Positions 157-25,830 of a stretch of DNA of 29,185 nt are shown here, in pieces (the first letter of the stretch is position 1; the number at the start of each line of letters is the position of its first letter). Below the pieces are notes generated by a model. The model made no database searches, had not been told where the DNA came from, and saw only the letters and a list, made by a program, of their open reading frames with translations. The stretch is taken from the IMG/VR virus record IMGVR_UViG_3300037316_000051, positions 1-29,185 of that record; one strand, given 5' to 3'. This DNA comes from a virus. Position numbers and translations under genes: made by a program.

Positions 157-549
157 TTATGTTCCCCGTCTAACGTATTTATCACGACGTTTATCAGTTG
201 TGTAATACTTTGCACGATGCTGACGGGCAGCTTCGACGCATAAATCACAGCGGCATCCTTTAACCCACATCCACCGTTTGCCGTGCTCGGTAGCGTGTTC
301 TTTCTTATGATGATCCGAACACCTTAATTCGCACTTATTAAGCTCTTCGATCAAAATCTCTTTTTGCCGAGAGAGAAGAGGACTGATATTAAACTCTTTC
401 TCAGCAGGGGCCTTGTGATGAAACTCAAGGTTCTCGGTTGCACCACATTCGACACAAACGCCACCAAGATATTCAAGAGCCCATTCACGCCGCTTTCGCC
501 GCCAACACCGTTGGGCCTCCATTTTATCATTGTGATTACTATATGGCAT
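157..549 (-). CDS. HNH endonuclease, zinc-finger type
   Basis: A 130-residue protein with an HNH-like core: a CxxC knuckle (C32, C35), the metal/catalytic HH pair (LEFHHK, H44-H45), then CELRCSDHHKKEH (C73, C77, H80, H81). A further cysteine cluster (C99, C101, C104) sits near the basic C-terminus. HNH proteins of this size are usually free-standing homing or nicking endonucleases in phages and cleave DNA in the cytoplasm. The ATG at 549 follows GGAG with about 9 nt spacing. It lies at the promoter-distal end of the tRNA array, a common insertion place for phage homing nucleases. Family assignment is firm; target and activity are not known. Confidence 0.85.
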   Translation of the reverse strand: MPYSNHNDKMEAQRCWRRKRREWALEYLGGVCVECGATENLEFHHKAPAEKEFNISPLLSRQKEILIEELNKCELRCSDHHKKEHATEHGKRWMWVKGCRCDLCVEAARQHRAKYYTTDKRRDKYVRRGT

Positions 550-733: not shown

Positions 734-785
734 TGGATGGGGTTTCGGATTCGAACCTCTAAGCCTCTCCGACTAGGGGAACCCC
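734..785 (-). pseudogene. tRNA relic lacking the anticodon arm
   Basis: About 52 nt that resemble a tRNA with its anticodon arm missing: GGGGTT at the 5' side pairs with AACCCC at the 3' side, a D-arm-like CTAGTCGGAGAGGCTTAG follows, then directly GAGG-TTCGAAT-CC with the canonical T loop, and a CCA close to the 3' end. The T stem is reduced to about 2 GC pairs. It begins just after the stop codon of the small membrane protein gene. Most likely a decayed tRNA; a functional mini-RNA is possible. Confidence 0.45.
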
Positions 786-794
786 TGTTGTAGT

Positions 795-1099: not shown

Positions 1100-1181
1100 T
1101 GGAGGATACCTGCGGACTCGAACCGCCTGCCTGCGGTTTAAAAGACCGCTGTCGCACCGATAGACTTAAAGCTAGGTATCC
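1100..1181 (-). tRNA. tRNA-Lys(TTT), enlarged D region
   Basis: Acceptor GGATACC/GGTATCC, discriminator T, encoded CCA. Anticodon arm GCGGT-ctTTTaa-ACCGC gives anticodon TTT. The T loop is TTCGAGT. The D region is about six nucleotides longer than usual, so the gene is 82 nt long. Confidence 0.87.
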
Positions 1182-1188
1182 GTGTTGT

Positions 1189-2181: not shown

Positions 2182-2288
2182 TGTATGTGTTTATCGCGGG
2201 AGGTATCCTGCCGCTAGACGAACGGAGAGCTTTTCGCCACCCGTATTGGATTCGAACCAACGTCTCCTCCCTGGATAAACACATTACA
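2182..2288 (-). ncRNA. Permuted tRNA-like RNA, YrlA (bacterial Y RNA)-like
   Basis: On the minus strand an 11-bp perfect helix (ATGTGTTTATC at 2284-2274 with GATAAACACAT at 2195-2185), extended by 3 bp after a bulge, closes the element. Inside, in order: GGAGG, T arm GTTGG-TTCGAAT-CCAAT, an acceptor-like hairpin ACGGGTGGC-gaaaa-GCTCTCCGT (one mismatch), a D arm GTCT-agcggca-GGAT, and CCTCC pairing with GGAGG. This is a complete tRNA core opened at the anticodon loop and closed at the acceptor end. The tRNA-like domain of bacterial YrlA Y RNAs has this topology. It lies between tRNA-Thr(TGT) and tRNA-Thr(GGT). No Ro60 gene is in the window. Fold read by eye. Confidence 0.6.
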
Positions 2289-22276: not shown

Positions 22277-22465
22277 ATGAATTTTTTAGACTACTTGAAC
22301 TACTATACGCAGAAATTGGCGTTACTTTCGTTCGGCTGGGAGGGATTTTTCACGATTCGGGTCGATTCGCTCGCACACTGGACGAGCGCCTTATTCAACC
22401 AATCGGTTAAACGACCTATATTAGCGTTTGCTAATACTATCTTAGCGGTCTACCGCGAAAAATAG
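22277..22465 (+). CDS. Possible small protein, convergent with terminase
   Basis: 62 residues, ATG at 22277 with GAGG 6 nt upstream. Hydrophobic/aromatic N-terminus (MNFLDYLNYYTQKLALLSFG) without a clear membrane helix. No family recognised. It overlaps the end of the terminase gene by 29 bp. Moderate support only: it rests on the start signal and on the otherwise empty space. Confidence 0.4.
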   Translation: MNFLDYLNYYTQKLALLSFGWEGFFTIRVDSLAHWTSALFNQSVKRPILAFANTILAVYREK

Positions 22466-25235
22466 CCGTCATGATTGTAGGCTCCTCGAAGCCACGAGCG
22501 GCGATCTCCTTTTGAATTTGCTCAAGCCCGCCGATAAGGTTGCGAACTGGCGGTAATCCAATATAATTTCGACCAGCCACTATACTTTTCGGTAAGGTAC
22601 CGTCCTTTGGATTTGGCAAGGTACCTGCCTGAGAATCTGACAAGGTACCTGCTCCCTCAGAATCTTTACGGTCCTCAGTCAGCTCTTGAAGCTTCGCCTC
22701 AACTTCCTTCCTCGCCTTTTCATTGTAGTTGCGAGAGCCAGCATAGCCGACGCCAGTCAGACGCTTAGTACCGTACTTACGCTTCGGACGCGCCCAAGCG
22801 AGATATTGCGAAGTCGAGTCGCCCTGATCCTTGTACTTGGTCTCAGGCCAACCAAATATCTCAGCTTCATATTCTGCTAGCCACCCTGAATTCTCAGGTA
22901 GATGGACCAGATGCGCTTCCATCATTGGCGTCACACCATCCATGCGAAACTCTTTCGTAGCGTTATCAGTTGAGATAGCGATAACTGCACGCGGGCAATG
23001 TGGCGAGTTTGGATCGGATTGCTGCTGAATGTACTGAGTACCAGAACCCTTGTCTTCGACGAGAACACAATCCACATCTCTCAGCTCAGCAAGCTTGTTG
23101 AGCTTGTTTGCCATCTCAAAGAACTCCACACGCTTGCGGTAGACCTCGATCAAGTAGTGATGGTTATCTTTAGTTTCATCCCAAATCGTTGCAACCGTAT
23201 AAGCTGCACGCTCGTTGTTCTTGTTGGCAGTGTCGACTGACATAACACGACGCTTCACGTCTTTGCGCTCAGGACCGATGCGATAGCGTGTACTTGTGAA
23301 CCATTCACGCTTGATGACGCCACCTTGCTCGTCGATCGGCTTGCCCATATACAAGCTGTTCCAATCCTTTGCGGATTGCTCAGACTTGATCTGCGCGAGA
23401 ACATCTTTCGAAAAGAACTCAGGCCAAAGCGGATCACCAAACTGGCGTCCGATTGGATCGGGAACTGAATCGTCCAAGTAAATTGCCGGCAGGTTAATGA
23501 TTTCCCAAGGGGCTCCATCGACCATACCTGCCTTGATCATCTTGTTTTCGGCCTCTAGGCGTCCGCAAAGATCGTCCGAATGCCAGCGCGTCGCCACTAT
23601 GAACAGTGGAGCTTTGGGAAGCAGACGCGTAAGGTAGTCAGCCTTGAACCAAGCATAGGTTTTATTGCGGATCGTATCGGATTCCGCATCCTCTCTCGAC
23701 GCAAATGGATCATCGACGCCAGCAAGATTAGTTCTGAAACCTGCAATTCCTTGTCCGACACCACGTGTCAGATAAGCAGAGCCGTTATTTAGCACCCAAT
23801 ATCCGGCGGCGCGCGAAGCTGTGCTTAGCTGTATGTTCGGAAACACTTCAGCATAGCGATCAGACTCAATTATATCTCTGCACTTCTTACCAAATTCGTT
23901 CTCGACGAAGTTCTGGCTGTGTCCGGCTTGAAGATATTTCGTCTTTGGAGCAACACCCATCTTCCAGGTTGGAAATAAGCGCGAGGCATACGTCGAATTA
24001 TGGGTTACAATATGTCCACGACCAACAAGAAACAAACCATCTTCGCGTTCGACAGTAATGCATTGAGTCGATTGAGTTCCTTCAATCTTCTCGAACGAAA
24101 TGTAACGTCCGTATTTACCTTCAAACTCAGTTGCACGACAGACCTTGCGCCATAGCTGAAACGCACTCTTGAAGTAGAAAGACACGCGCCAATATTCACC
24201 GCAGTCTTTTCCGTTCAACATAGCACGTCCAGGGATGATTGAATTCTTCACCCCTAACGAAAACAGAAGTTCACTCACTGCGTCCCTCAAGCGAGAATTG
24301 GTTGAACAAAACGAACACTGTCCTGACGGCGAGACCGTTCCATCACTATCCATCAATCCTTGTAGAATTGATAAACGCACGTGATAAGAATTTCGAAGAT
24401 ACAGCTCAGGAACATGCTTATTGTTCAAGACACCAAGTGATACCAGATGCTTTCTAATGCCTAACAAACCAAATGCAGTCTTAGTTGTATGATCAGAAGT
24501 ATGAACTCCGCACCATTCAATGCGCTCACGTACTTCCGGCTGATCCTTCACATCACATGTTATTGTCGGTTGATCGGAATGCCCGTCGCCTAACCAATAT
24601 CCAAGAACATAAGGATCAAGCGGAATCGTACGAGCCTTATATTCGACTGCTTCAAAATTTGGAAGTTTTGCACGGCGAGGAGATGTTCGATTGGCAAGAT
24701 ATTCAGTTGGATATGTCTTCCAATAATCACGCTTGCGATCTAATCGAACTGTCCACAAATGTTCCCCATCAACTAAAACAGCTTGTCCATCATCAGTGTA
24801 TACACGATAGATTGTACGATTTTCAAACACCGGCGATTTTGCGATTATCTTAGTTGTTGTGCCGTCTGGTCCGTAAACCTTGTCACCGACTTTCAACTCA
24901 GCAATCGTTTTGTAACCGAGCGGAGTTGGAACCTTAGTATCCAGCACCATCGCTTTTGCATGTCCTGGTGGCGCCGATATCATTAGACGCGAGTGCATTC
25001 CCTGTGACAAATCTGTCAGCTTATTCAGCATGAAGACATGCCAATCAGCCGGTGGTTCATCCGGAAAAATGTATTCACAATATGCAGTTAGGTCTTTTGG
25101 CGCGAGCTGAAGCAGAGCGCTCATGTACTCATTCGAAGTGCTTTCGTAAAGCTCTTCAAGTGCAATCAGCTGTTGCGCGGGATCGGTAGTACCTGTAAGT
25201 TCTATTATGAACTTAGTCTTTGTCGGCGTCAACAT
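22437..25235 (-). CDS. terL: Terminase large subunit interrupted by an intein
   Basis: 932 residues from the ATG at 25235 (weak start; the frame stays open to 25340, other ATGs at 25277 and 25340). After removal of the 319-residue intein the protein is about 613 residues. Walker A APPGHAK-STY is split exactly by the intein. Later: GVGQGIAGFRTNLAGVDDPF with the Walker B acidic pair, IVATRWHSDDLCGRLE (motif III region), and the RNase H-like nuclease with MSVDTANKNNERAAY and CVLVEDKGSGTQYIQ. TerL is the ATP-driven motor that packages DNA through the portal and cuts the concatemer. It overlaps the small terminase gene by 23 bp. Confidence 0.9.
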   Translation of the reverse strand: MLTPTKTKFIIELTGTTDPAQQLIALEELYESTSNEYMSALLQLAPKDLTAYCEYIFPDEPPADWHVFMLNKLTDLSQGMHSRLMISAPPGHAKAMVLDTKVPTPLGYKTIAELKVGDKVYGPDGTTTKIIAKSPVFENRTIYRVYTDDGQAVLVDGEHLWTVRLDRKRDYWKTYPTEYLANRTSPRRAKLPNFEAVEYKARTIPLDPYVLGYWLGDGHSDQPTITCDVKDQPEVRERIEWCGVHTSDHTTKTAFGLLGIRKHLVSLGVLNNKHVPELYLRNSYHVRLSILQGLMDSDGTVSPSGQCSFCSTNSRLRDAVSELLFSLGVKNSIIPGRAMLNGKDCGEYWRVSFYFKSAFQLWRKVCRATEFEGKYGRYISFEKIEGTQSTQCITVEREDGLFLVGRGHIVTHNSTYASRLFPTWKMGVAPKTKYLQAGHSQNFVENEFGKKCRDIIESDRYAEVFPNIQLSTASRAAGYWVLNNGSAYLTRGVGQGIAGFRTNLAGVDDPFASREDAESDTIRNKTYAWFKADYLTRLLPKAPLFIVATRWHSDDLCGRLEAENKMIKAGMVDGAPWEIINLPAIYLDDSVPDPIGRQFGDPLWPEFFSKDVLAQIKSEQSAKDWNSLYMGKPIDEQGGVIKREWFTSTRYRIGPERKDVKRRVMSVDTANKNNERAAYTVATIWDETKDNHHYLIEVYRKRVEFFEMANKLNKLAELRDVDCVLVEDKGSGTQYIQQQSDPNSPHCPRAVIAISTDNATKEFRMDGVTPMMEAHLVHLPENSGWLAEYEAEIFGWPETKYKDQGDSTSQYLAWARPKRKYGTKRLTGVGYAGSRNYNEKARKEVEAKLQELTEDRKDSEGAGTLSDSQAGTLPNPKDGTLPKSIVAGRNYIGLPPVRNLIGGLEQIQKEIAARGFEEPTIMTAIFRGRPLR
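23997..24953 (-). mobile_element. LAGLIDADG intein, class 3 features, in the Walker A loop of TerL
   Basis: Intein of 319 residues (Ala1 to Asn319) between Lys of GHAK and Ser+1. Residue 1 is Ala, not Cys or Ser. Block B reads GEHLW (His65, Trp67), block F TQCITV (Cys298), block G VTHN (Thr317, His318, Asn319). The Trp-Cys-Thr triplet with a non-nucleophilic residue 1 defines class 3 inteins, which start splicing from the block F cysteine. Two LAGLIDADG motifs (VLGYWLGDGH at 116-125, LQGLMDSDGT at 197-206) show an intact homing endonuclease. Confidence 0.85.
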
Positions 25236-25830
25236 CGACTGACGTATCAGTGATGTTTCCAGCTCCGTCGCCACCATCTTCAGGTTCGTCAGTGACTTCC
25301 GTATCTGCTTGCGCGTCTTTTGCGAGATTATTTGCAGCATCTTCTTGTTCTTTATCCATTTTTCGGAATGTATGCACTAGATTTGCGAGGCTCGAAGCAG
25401 TAGGTGCCTTAGACTTTTTCGTTTCAGAAATTCCGCCACGATCAACACCATTTTTACCGAGCTTACCCCACATTCCAAGATATTCGCCCATCAGTTCAAT
25501 GCAACGAAAAGCTGCGTTATGCTGCTTTTCTAGCTTTGCGTTCTGAGCAAGCAACATAAGTTGTTCAAGCACCCACGTCTTTGTGAGTTCAAGGTCTTCG
25601 TCAGTCTTCGGACCATTCTTGAGAATGTCATCGATCGCCACAATCGATCCTTCAGCCGCCTCTATCTTCAGTTCGCGTATACGCGCCTGAATCTCAAGCT
25701 GATGAAACATTTTTGAAGCGTTGCCTGGGTTTGGCGAATATCCGGCTTTTTCATATGAATCAGTAATGCCGCCGCCACGAACTATCAGGCTGCAAAAGTT
25801 CTCTCGACGAATATCTTGTAATTTCATCAT
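25213..25830 (-). CDS. terS: Terminase small subunit
   Basis: 205 residues from the ATG at 25830; the frame opens further to ATG 25998 and TTG 26007, but that part is Trp/Arg-rich and has no ribosome binding site. Residues about 5-55 match the DNA-binding domain of phage small terminases (FCSLIVRGGGITDSYEKAGY, SPNPGNASKMFHQLE, then QARIRELK). The C-terminus is strongly acidic (DEPEDGGDGAGNITDTSVD). TerS recognises the packaging site and regulates TerL. It is directly upstream of and overlapping terL, as usual in phages. Confidence 0.8.
   Translation of the reverse strand: MMKLQDIRRENFCSLIVRGGGITDSYEKAGYSPNPGNASKMFHQLEIQARIRELKIEAAEGSIVAIDDILKNGPKTDEDLELTKTWVLEQLMLLAQNAKLEKQHNAAFRCIELMGEYLGMWGKLGKNGVDRGGISETKKSKAPTASSLANLVHTFRKMDKEQEDAANNLAKDAQADTEVTDEPEDGGDGAGNITDTSVDVDADKD

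Follow-up and report, generated by a model that had tools for sequence, protein, structure and literature searches.

The minus strand of the window, which is an entire IMG/VR virus record of 29,185 bases, encodes between positions 2288 and 2182 a circularly permuted tRNA-like RNA, in which the 3' half of a tRNA stands ahead of its 5' half; this was confirmed by the present analysis. With its permuted core, its complete 5-bp anticodon-equivalent stem and its location in a record where no Ro60 was found, the RNA fits a group of permuted RNAs that occur without Ro60. Permuted tRNA mimics were previously described as partners of Ro60; the RNA of the window most likely works like the tRNA-like domain of the bacterial Y RNA YrlA, without Ro60. 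No description of such a Ro60-free subtype was present in the open-access papers searched (a set outside which the main paper on bacterial Y RNAs as tRNA mimics lies), and we regard the subtype as new provisionally. The record is a fragment of the genome of an uncultured bacteriophage and contains, besides a tRNA array on the minus strand (566-2537), phage portal and terminase genes.

Architecture of the permuted RNA

The preliminary description of this locus had claimed a complete tRNA core in permuted order and a perfect 11-bp outer helix, and both were found. The covariance model R1, built on 37 other viral permuted RNAs with the window left out, detects the RNA at 57.2 bits (E about 3e-19, match over 2276-2197), nothing else in the window being close. 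The predicted RNA (2182-2288, minus strand, both ends presumed) has a fold more stable than that of shuffled sequence (z = -4.5). It begins with the 5' strand of the outer helix, AUGUGUUUAUC (2274-2284), which forms 11 perfect pairs with the 3' strand, GAUAAACACAU (2185-2195); for the Watson-Crick pairs P = 5e-5 against shuffled flanks, and the pairing probability is 0.999. The first helix strand is followed by CA, GGGAGG (2266-2271, the 3' strand of the anticodon-stem equivalent), the variable region AGAC, the T arm GUUGG-UUCGAAU-CCAAU (2245-2261), the acceptor hairpin (2222-2244), UC, the D arm GUCUAGCGGCAGGAU (2205-2219), A, CCUCCC (2198-2203, the 5' strand of the anticodon-stem equivalent, pairing with GGGAGG), GC and the second helix strand, all on the minus strand. 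Positions 39-43 of the anticodon-stem equivalent covary in relatives, and between this stem and the outer helix there is an internal loop, CA/GC.

The acceptor stem is sealed as a hairpin, ACGGGUGGC-GAAAA-GCUCUCCGU: ACGGGUG pairs with UCUCCGU, one U.C mismatch excepted, a GC/GC extension follows, and GAAAA closes the loop. There is no CCA, although the sampled neighbouring tRNAs of the same array do encode it. The D arm, GUCU-AGCGGCA-GGAU (2219-2205) when written out and preceded by U8 and C9, is of the tRNA-Glu type (U11-A24, C12-G23, U13-G22); like the T arm, it was assigned from the sequence together with the R1 alignment. The positions of the tRNA elbow (U8-A14, G15-C48, G18 G19, UUCRA) are present as a full set. 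When the halves are swapped back around a 7-nt loop, ARAGORN calls a tRNA-Glu, a call that tests the body only, the anticodon having come from the added loop. The RNA itself has no anticodon loop, and its flanks offer no material for a 7-nt loop bearing a plausible Glu anticodon; a 3-nt bulge-helix-bulge motif is likewise absent, the CA/GC internal loop and then the perfect helix standing there instead. No promoter-like site was found around the RNA.

As to the energy of folding, the thermodynamic minimum (-42.2 kcal/mol) lies below the tRNA-like fold (-39.4 kcal/mol) and lacks the T and D arms, and therefore it is the covariance model, not energy, that supports these two arms. The minimum also misses the cloverleaf in two of five ordinary tRNAs of the window array. 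Since the energy model alone disfavours the T and D arms, comparative evidence is needed.

Relatives and covariation

Viral contigs were scanned with a pattern comprising a T arm, a gap and a tRNA-Glu-type D arm. Many of the loci retrieved were tandem ordinary tRNAs; once those recognised by ARAGORN had been removed, several dozen permuted RNAs were left, each with its acceptor closed locally. Most of the search patterns included the Glu-type D arm, so that its frequency is partly a matter of ascertainment; when the variable-region pattern was combined with a TAGCTCAG D arm instead, the 25 loci obtained contained only about 2 permuted candidates. Covariation in relatives, a check put forward in the preliminary description, was found for the core: in the alignment of the 37 RNAs, which leaves out the window, two-sided changes occur in 15 of 21 pairs, with a covariation score of 0.67 (shuffled versions 0.17, slid ones no more than 0.13), the acceptor pairs being biased in this respect by their use in the selection of loci and the anticodon-stem pairs not having been so used. 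R1 scores up to about 50 bits were trusted only after a check for ordinary tRNAs; high scores at tRNA-Glu/Glu, Gln/Gln and Pyl/Pyl junctions (Cp1R7A-A1 with 49.6 bits, CcrRogue and L174) proved to be due to tandem ordinary tRNAs and were rejected.

Rfam, at gathering as well as loose thresholds, does not match the RNA of the window, which says nothing about its nature, because Rfam 15 at gathering thresholds detects not one of the permuted RNAs collected and misses clear YrlA-type loci too, the latter also at loose thresholds. DNA searches of phages with the RNA alone and with the whole window gave no homologue, and blastn with the arrays of the records L077 and L136 gave matches to one or two tRNAs only. 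Relatives of the DUF932 protein of the window gave 32 loci, of which only three have a permuted RNA; it differs in type, containing CCA and having a D arm of the ordinary kind. In L272-L274, phages that share this DUF932 protein, the permuted tRNA-like RNA stands just before a tRNA, its D arm being GGCTCAG/TAGCTCAG and its acceptor loop containing CCA.

Conservation in tRNA arrays

The permuted RNA ends 2-3 nt ahead of the 5' end of tRNA-Thr(GGT) (2104-2179), which lies immediately downstream of it; its upstream neighbour is tRNA-Thr(TGT) (2379-2454), both tRNAs being recognised by ARAGORN and the Rfam tRNA model. Further upstream lies tRNA-Thr(CGT) (2463-2537, ARAGORN), and the rest of the array (566-2097) consists of five Leu, two Val, one Ile, one Lys and one Asp tRNA genes, all on the minus strand; for the most part it runs collinear with the array in L077, a virus record of 70 kb. 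In L077 an RNA that is apparently the orthologue of the one under study stands between tRNA-Thr(CGT) and tRNA-Thr(GGT). The order shared by the two records is two Thr, the permuted RNA, ThrGGT, LeuCAG, LeuCAA, ValTAC, IleGAT, LysCTT, LeuGAG and AspGTC; for ten tRNAs it agrees, save that two Thr genes have changed places and a few additional genes are present. Pairwise identity is about 77% for the permuted RNA and 69-83% for the ten paired tRNAs, these values being relative, as unrelated tRNAs also share much sequence. Because the L077 copy stands in a collinear array and is conserved to roughly the same degree as the tRNAs, the RNA of the window is not debris, and the earlier suggestion that it is not a decayed tRNA thus holds.

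The preliminary description had also proposed a search for compensatory changes in related phages, and these were found in the core helices: between the window and L077, pairs 29-41, 51-63, 6-67 and 7-66 (read by eye) are changed on both sides and still paired. As the key conserved feature the outer helix finds no support: it is missing from L077, where only AGTA precedes the core and GCAATTCAC follows it (4 and 9 nt); the 11-bp helix is therefore local and outside what is conserved. A UUCAC in the L077 trailer that looks like an anticodon was put down to chance. The two phages are distant (23% identity of the terminases and no portal match), and therefore the tRNA array may have moved between phages as a unit. 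The nearest relatives of the portal protein of the window are from a Microcystis phage and siphophages of alphaproteobacteria; no relatives of its terminase were found in the viral contigs. In two further records, L038 and L136, an RNA of the same kind stands between tRNA-Pro(TGG) and tRNA-Ile(GAT). In the closest array-embedded cases (L077, L038, L136, L121, L074) a sealed acceptor without CCA stands next to tRNAs most of which encode CCA.

Relation to Y RNAs and Ro60

YrlA has D, T and acceptor arms of the tRNA type (PMC8394870). The RNA of the window shares with it the order of T arm, closed acceptor hairpin and D arm, joined via the anticodon side to an outer stem, an arm order that we observed in Ro60-linked loci as well. 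A structure of the tRNA-like effector domain of Salmonella YrlA is deposited as PDB 6CU1. In contrast to YrlA, the RNA of the window has a complete anticodon-equivalent stem and is set in a tRNA array, and neither the Ro60-side elements nor a Ro60 gene were found; YrlA forms from its 5' and 3' ends a basal stem that binds Ro60, and the RNA of the window has an 11-bp stem, but without the Ro60-linked sequence signatures.

Of the 52 records that were compared, 21 have the Ro60 (TROVE) domain PF05731 above the cut-off; the window counts among the negatives. An anticodon-equivalent stem with all 5 bp is present in one of these 21 records and in 20 of the 31 Ro60-negative ones (Fisher p 1e-5). The two pairs beside the anticodon-loop side are unpaired in 13-14 of the 16 aligned Ro60-linked sequences; the stem of the window RNA, with 5-6 complete pairs, is unlike the short stem of these members. 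Two further covariance models, R2 trained on Ro60-linked and R3 on Ro60-free RNAs, were scored on sequences held out of the training. The RNA of the window obtained 66.2 bits with R3 and 49.0 bits with R2, so that the Ro60-free model is ahead by 17 bits, and R3 is also above R2 for L178, L038, L043, L069 and L212. All seven bacterial Ro60-linked RNAs, on the contrary, score 66-83 bits with R2 against 57-66 bits with R3. RpAliso, Lacusarx, L037 and L215 lean to R2, and therefore the separation of the two forms is not clean for every member.

As a bacterial control, the same pattern was run on bacterial genomes. It retrieved seven RNAs with a YrlA-like upstream element, all seven in TROVE-bearing genomes, and one permuted RNA without TROVE, in a Parasphingopyxis MAG. 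The latter (L178, 2672-2751), which may lie in a prophage, has with the Ro60-free model the best score of the held-out sequences, 78.3 bits.

That no Ro60 is in view, as had been stated previously, holds for the whole 29-kb record, itself a fragment of the phage genome, in which no TROVE protein was found; nor was any found in the records of L077 (70 kb), L038, L136 and L121, which span 70-177 kb. The Ro60-side elements of Ro60-linked relatives, GGUUAUC/GGUUACUUC upstream and, in some of them, CCGA...ACUUG, are absent from the RNA of the window according to a motif search and inspection by eye. Position in an array and absence of Ro60 go in the same direction, not significantly (p 0.23 and 0.38). 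Thus, of the initial reading of the RNA as a YrlA-like Y RNA, the topology of the tRNA-like domain stands, whereas the Ro60-side signatures are lacking and R3 scores above R2. Filing the RNA as a Y RNA is not supported, because the Ro60-side features tested are absent from it and no Ro60 gene is in view.

Possible function and alternative explanations

We suppose, with about equal weight for and against, that the RNA of the window is a Ro60-independent, stand-alone tRNA mimic that binds tRNA-handling proteins competitively. It would probably be co-transcribed with the tRNA array and then released. Its fold has all the parts of a tRNA body: both the T and the D arm, the variable region and the two stems of acceptor and anticodon. 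Owing to the permuted wiring, the acceptor end is a closed hairpin and the RNA's own ends exit at the anticodon side; the mimic would be unchargeable and, lacking an anticodon loop, could neither decode nor be cleaved there. Such a molecule could hold proteins that grip the tRNA elbow or a Glu-type D arm without itself being a substrate, possible targets being tRNA-cleaving defence nucleases and modification or decay enzymes, and the phage would presumably benefit from it. The tRNA-like domain of YrlA has been proposed as a possible competitive inhibitor of an anticodon nuclease (PMC7790460), and the anticodon nuclease RloC prefers tRNA-Glu when overexpressed in E. coli (PMC2610378). Phage tRNA arrays opposed to tRNA-cleaving defence (PMC10264068, PMC11555353) offer the same genomic setting and possibly the same pressure; the tRNAs of such arrays decode, whereas the RNA of the window cannot. 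Tentatively, and with somewhat more doubt than trust, we extend this reading to phages more widely: they would carry, often within tRNA arrays, permuted tRNA mimics with sealed acceptors that need no Ro60 and form a family apart, serving during infection as inhibitors of tRNA-targeting enzymes or as decoys that these cannot cleave. If the Ro60-free subtype is real, phage tRNA clusters hold more than decoding tRNAs, and standard tRNA finders and Rfam overlook a part of them; the proposed action of the mimics as inhibitors of tRNA-cutting defence would be testable in the cultured phages RpAliso (host Ruegeria pomeroyi DSS-3) and Lacusarx (host Sphingobium). A simple origin for the YrlA domain would be offered as well, from tandem tRNAs by loss of their outer halves.

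It is unlikely that the RNA is an orphan YrlA Y RNA, with the outer helix as the Ro60-binding stem and a Ro60 encoded either by the host or in that part of the phage genome which the record lacks. The topology is indeed that of YrlA, a Ro60-bearing phage record (L025) carries such an RNA among its tRNAs, the seven bacterial RNAs with the YrlA-like upstream element all come from Ro60-positive genomes, and the window is only 29 kb long; but TROVE is absent also from the four longer records, the Ro60-linked model falls 17 bits short, the Ro60-side elements are lacking, and the outer helix is not kept in L077. A functionless relic, i.e. two tRNA halves left after recombination in the array, is quite improbable. 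Phage tRNA arrays do recombine, tandem tRNA-Glu genes losing their outer halves would yield the permuted order, and position 2-71 of the acceptor is mismatched. A relic, however, accords poorly with the covariation of the core across the family, with the compensatory changes and tRNA-like conservation of the L077 copy, with the perfect outer helix (P 5e-5) and with the identical placement of the RNA in L038 and L136.

The distance of 2-3 nt from tRNA-Thr(GGT) and the lack of a promoter-like site nearby would suit a processing element whose fold merely aids RNase P or other enzymes in separating the flanking tRNA-Thr transcripts; yet most neighbouring tRNAs of the array have short plain spacers instead, and the same type of RNA is also found far from tRNAs, so that we consider this very improbable. 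Least credible of all is a permuted tRNA gene whose transcript, as in red algae, would mature to a working tRNA through joining on the anticodon side and opening of the acceptor. The permuted tRNA genes of algae and archaea, with the 3' half ahead of the 5' half as here, have bulge-helix-bulge junctions and circularise to normal tRNAs, and the known cases come from algae and one archaeon (PMC3978253). The complete tRNA body with tRNA-Glu identity elements in the D arm, NCCA kept in the acceptor loop of L025, L028, L069, L116 and L130, and RtcB in several records would agree with such a gene. In the window, by contrast, the acceptor is sealed by the extra GC pairs and the GAAAA loop, CCA is missing next to tRNAs that encode it, and neither a bulge-helix-bulge nor an anticodon loop can be formed. 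A decoding tRNA is thus unlikely because of the sealed, CCA-less acceptor, the missing anticodon loop and the presence of normal tRNA-Glu(CTC) and tRNA-Glu(TTC) genes in L077, where a further tRNA-Glu is therefore not needed. The permuted two-piece tmRNA of alphaproteobacteria and their phages, genes of which are present in portal-related phages, has the same order of T arm, acceptor and 5' piece, but the RNA of the window has a full D arm; no tag reading frame was found in it, and the ARAGORN tmRNA search of the window was negative.

Complete phage genomes and further observations

Among complete genomes, that of Ruegeria phage RpAliso has a permuted RNA detected by R1 at 66.5 bits and that of Sphingobium phage Lacusarx one at 63.4 bits; in Rhodobacter phage RcXuper the match (41.1 bits), checked by eye and confirmed, is a variant whose D arm is ordinary. 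No TROVE was found in these three genomes. In RpAliso (L155, 1500-1580) and RcXuper (L159, 1500-1580) the RNA comes after a permuted tmRNA gene, its long outer helix (about 20 bp) is at matching positions in both phages, and downstream of it lie genes for a 720-aa protein and an RlaP-type RNA-repair nucleotidyltransferase. Part of the 720-aa protein matches the MXAN_6230/SCO0854 family; a hidden Ro60 was rejected by profile comparison (0.8% probability). Phages MD18 and DSS3_MAL1 have tmRNA and RlaP, with a weaker permuted-like match elsewhere in the genome. Repair enzymes RtcB or RlaP occur in several records of the permuted-RNA group, a count made without a base-rate control, and none in the window record; their co-occurrence is compatible with the tRNA-mimic idea.

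The L077 record has a second permuted-like RNA (L188, 3023-3105; 41.7 bits) with a perfect 5-bp anticodon-equivalent stem, between tRNA-Pro and tRNA-Met. Within the window array, a tRNA-like stretch at 734-790 (minus strand) with acceptor, CCA and T arm apparently has no anticodon arm (GGGGTTCCCCTAGTCGGAGAGGCTTAGAGGTTCGAATCCGAAACCCCATCCA) and is perhaps a truncated tRNA, and at about 1102-1182 (minus strand), between the genes for tRNA-Ile and tRNA-Lys(CTT), there is a sequence resembling tRNA-Lys(TTT) that ARAGORN and Rfam missed. At the end of the array, a 130-aa protein (157-549, minus strand) with an HNH-like pattern (CVECGATENLEFHHK...HHKKEH) and no Pfam match is a possible homing endonuclease. 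The large terminase (22437-25340, minus strand; 967 aa) contains a LAGLIDADG-like domain (PF14528), so that an intein or another insertion of that sort probably interrupts it.
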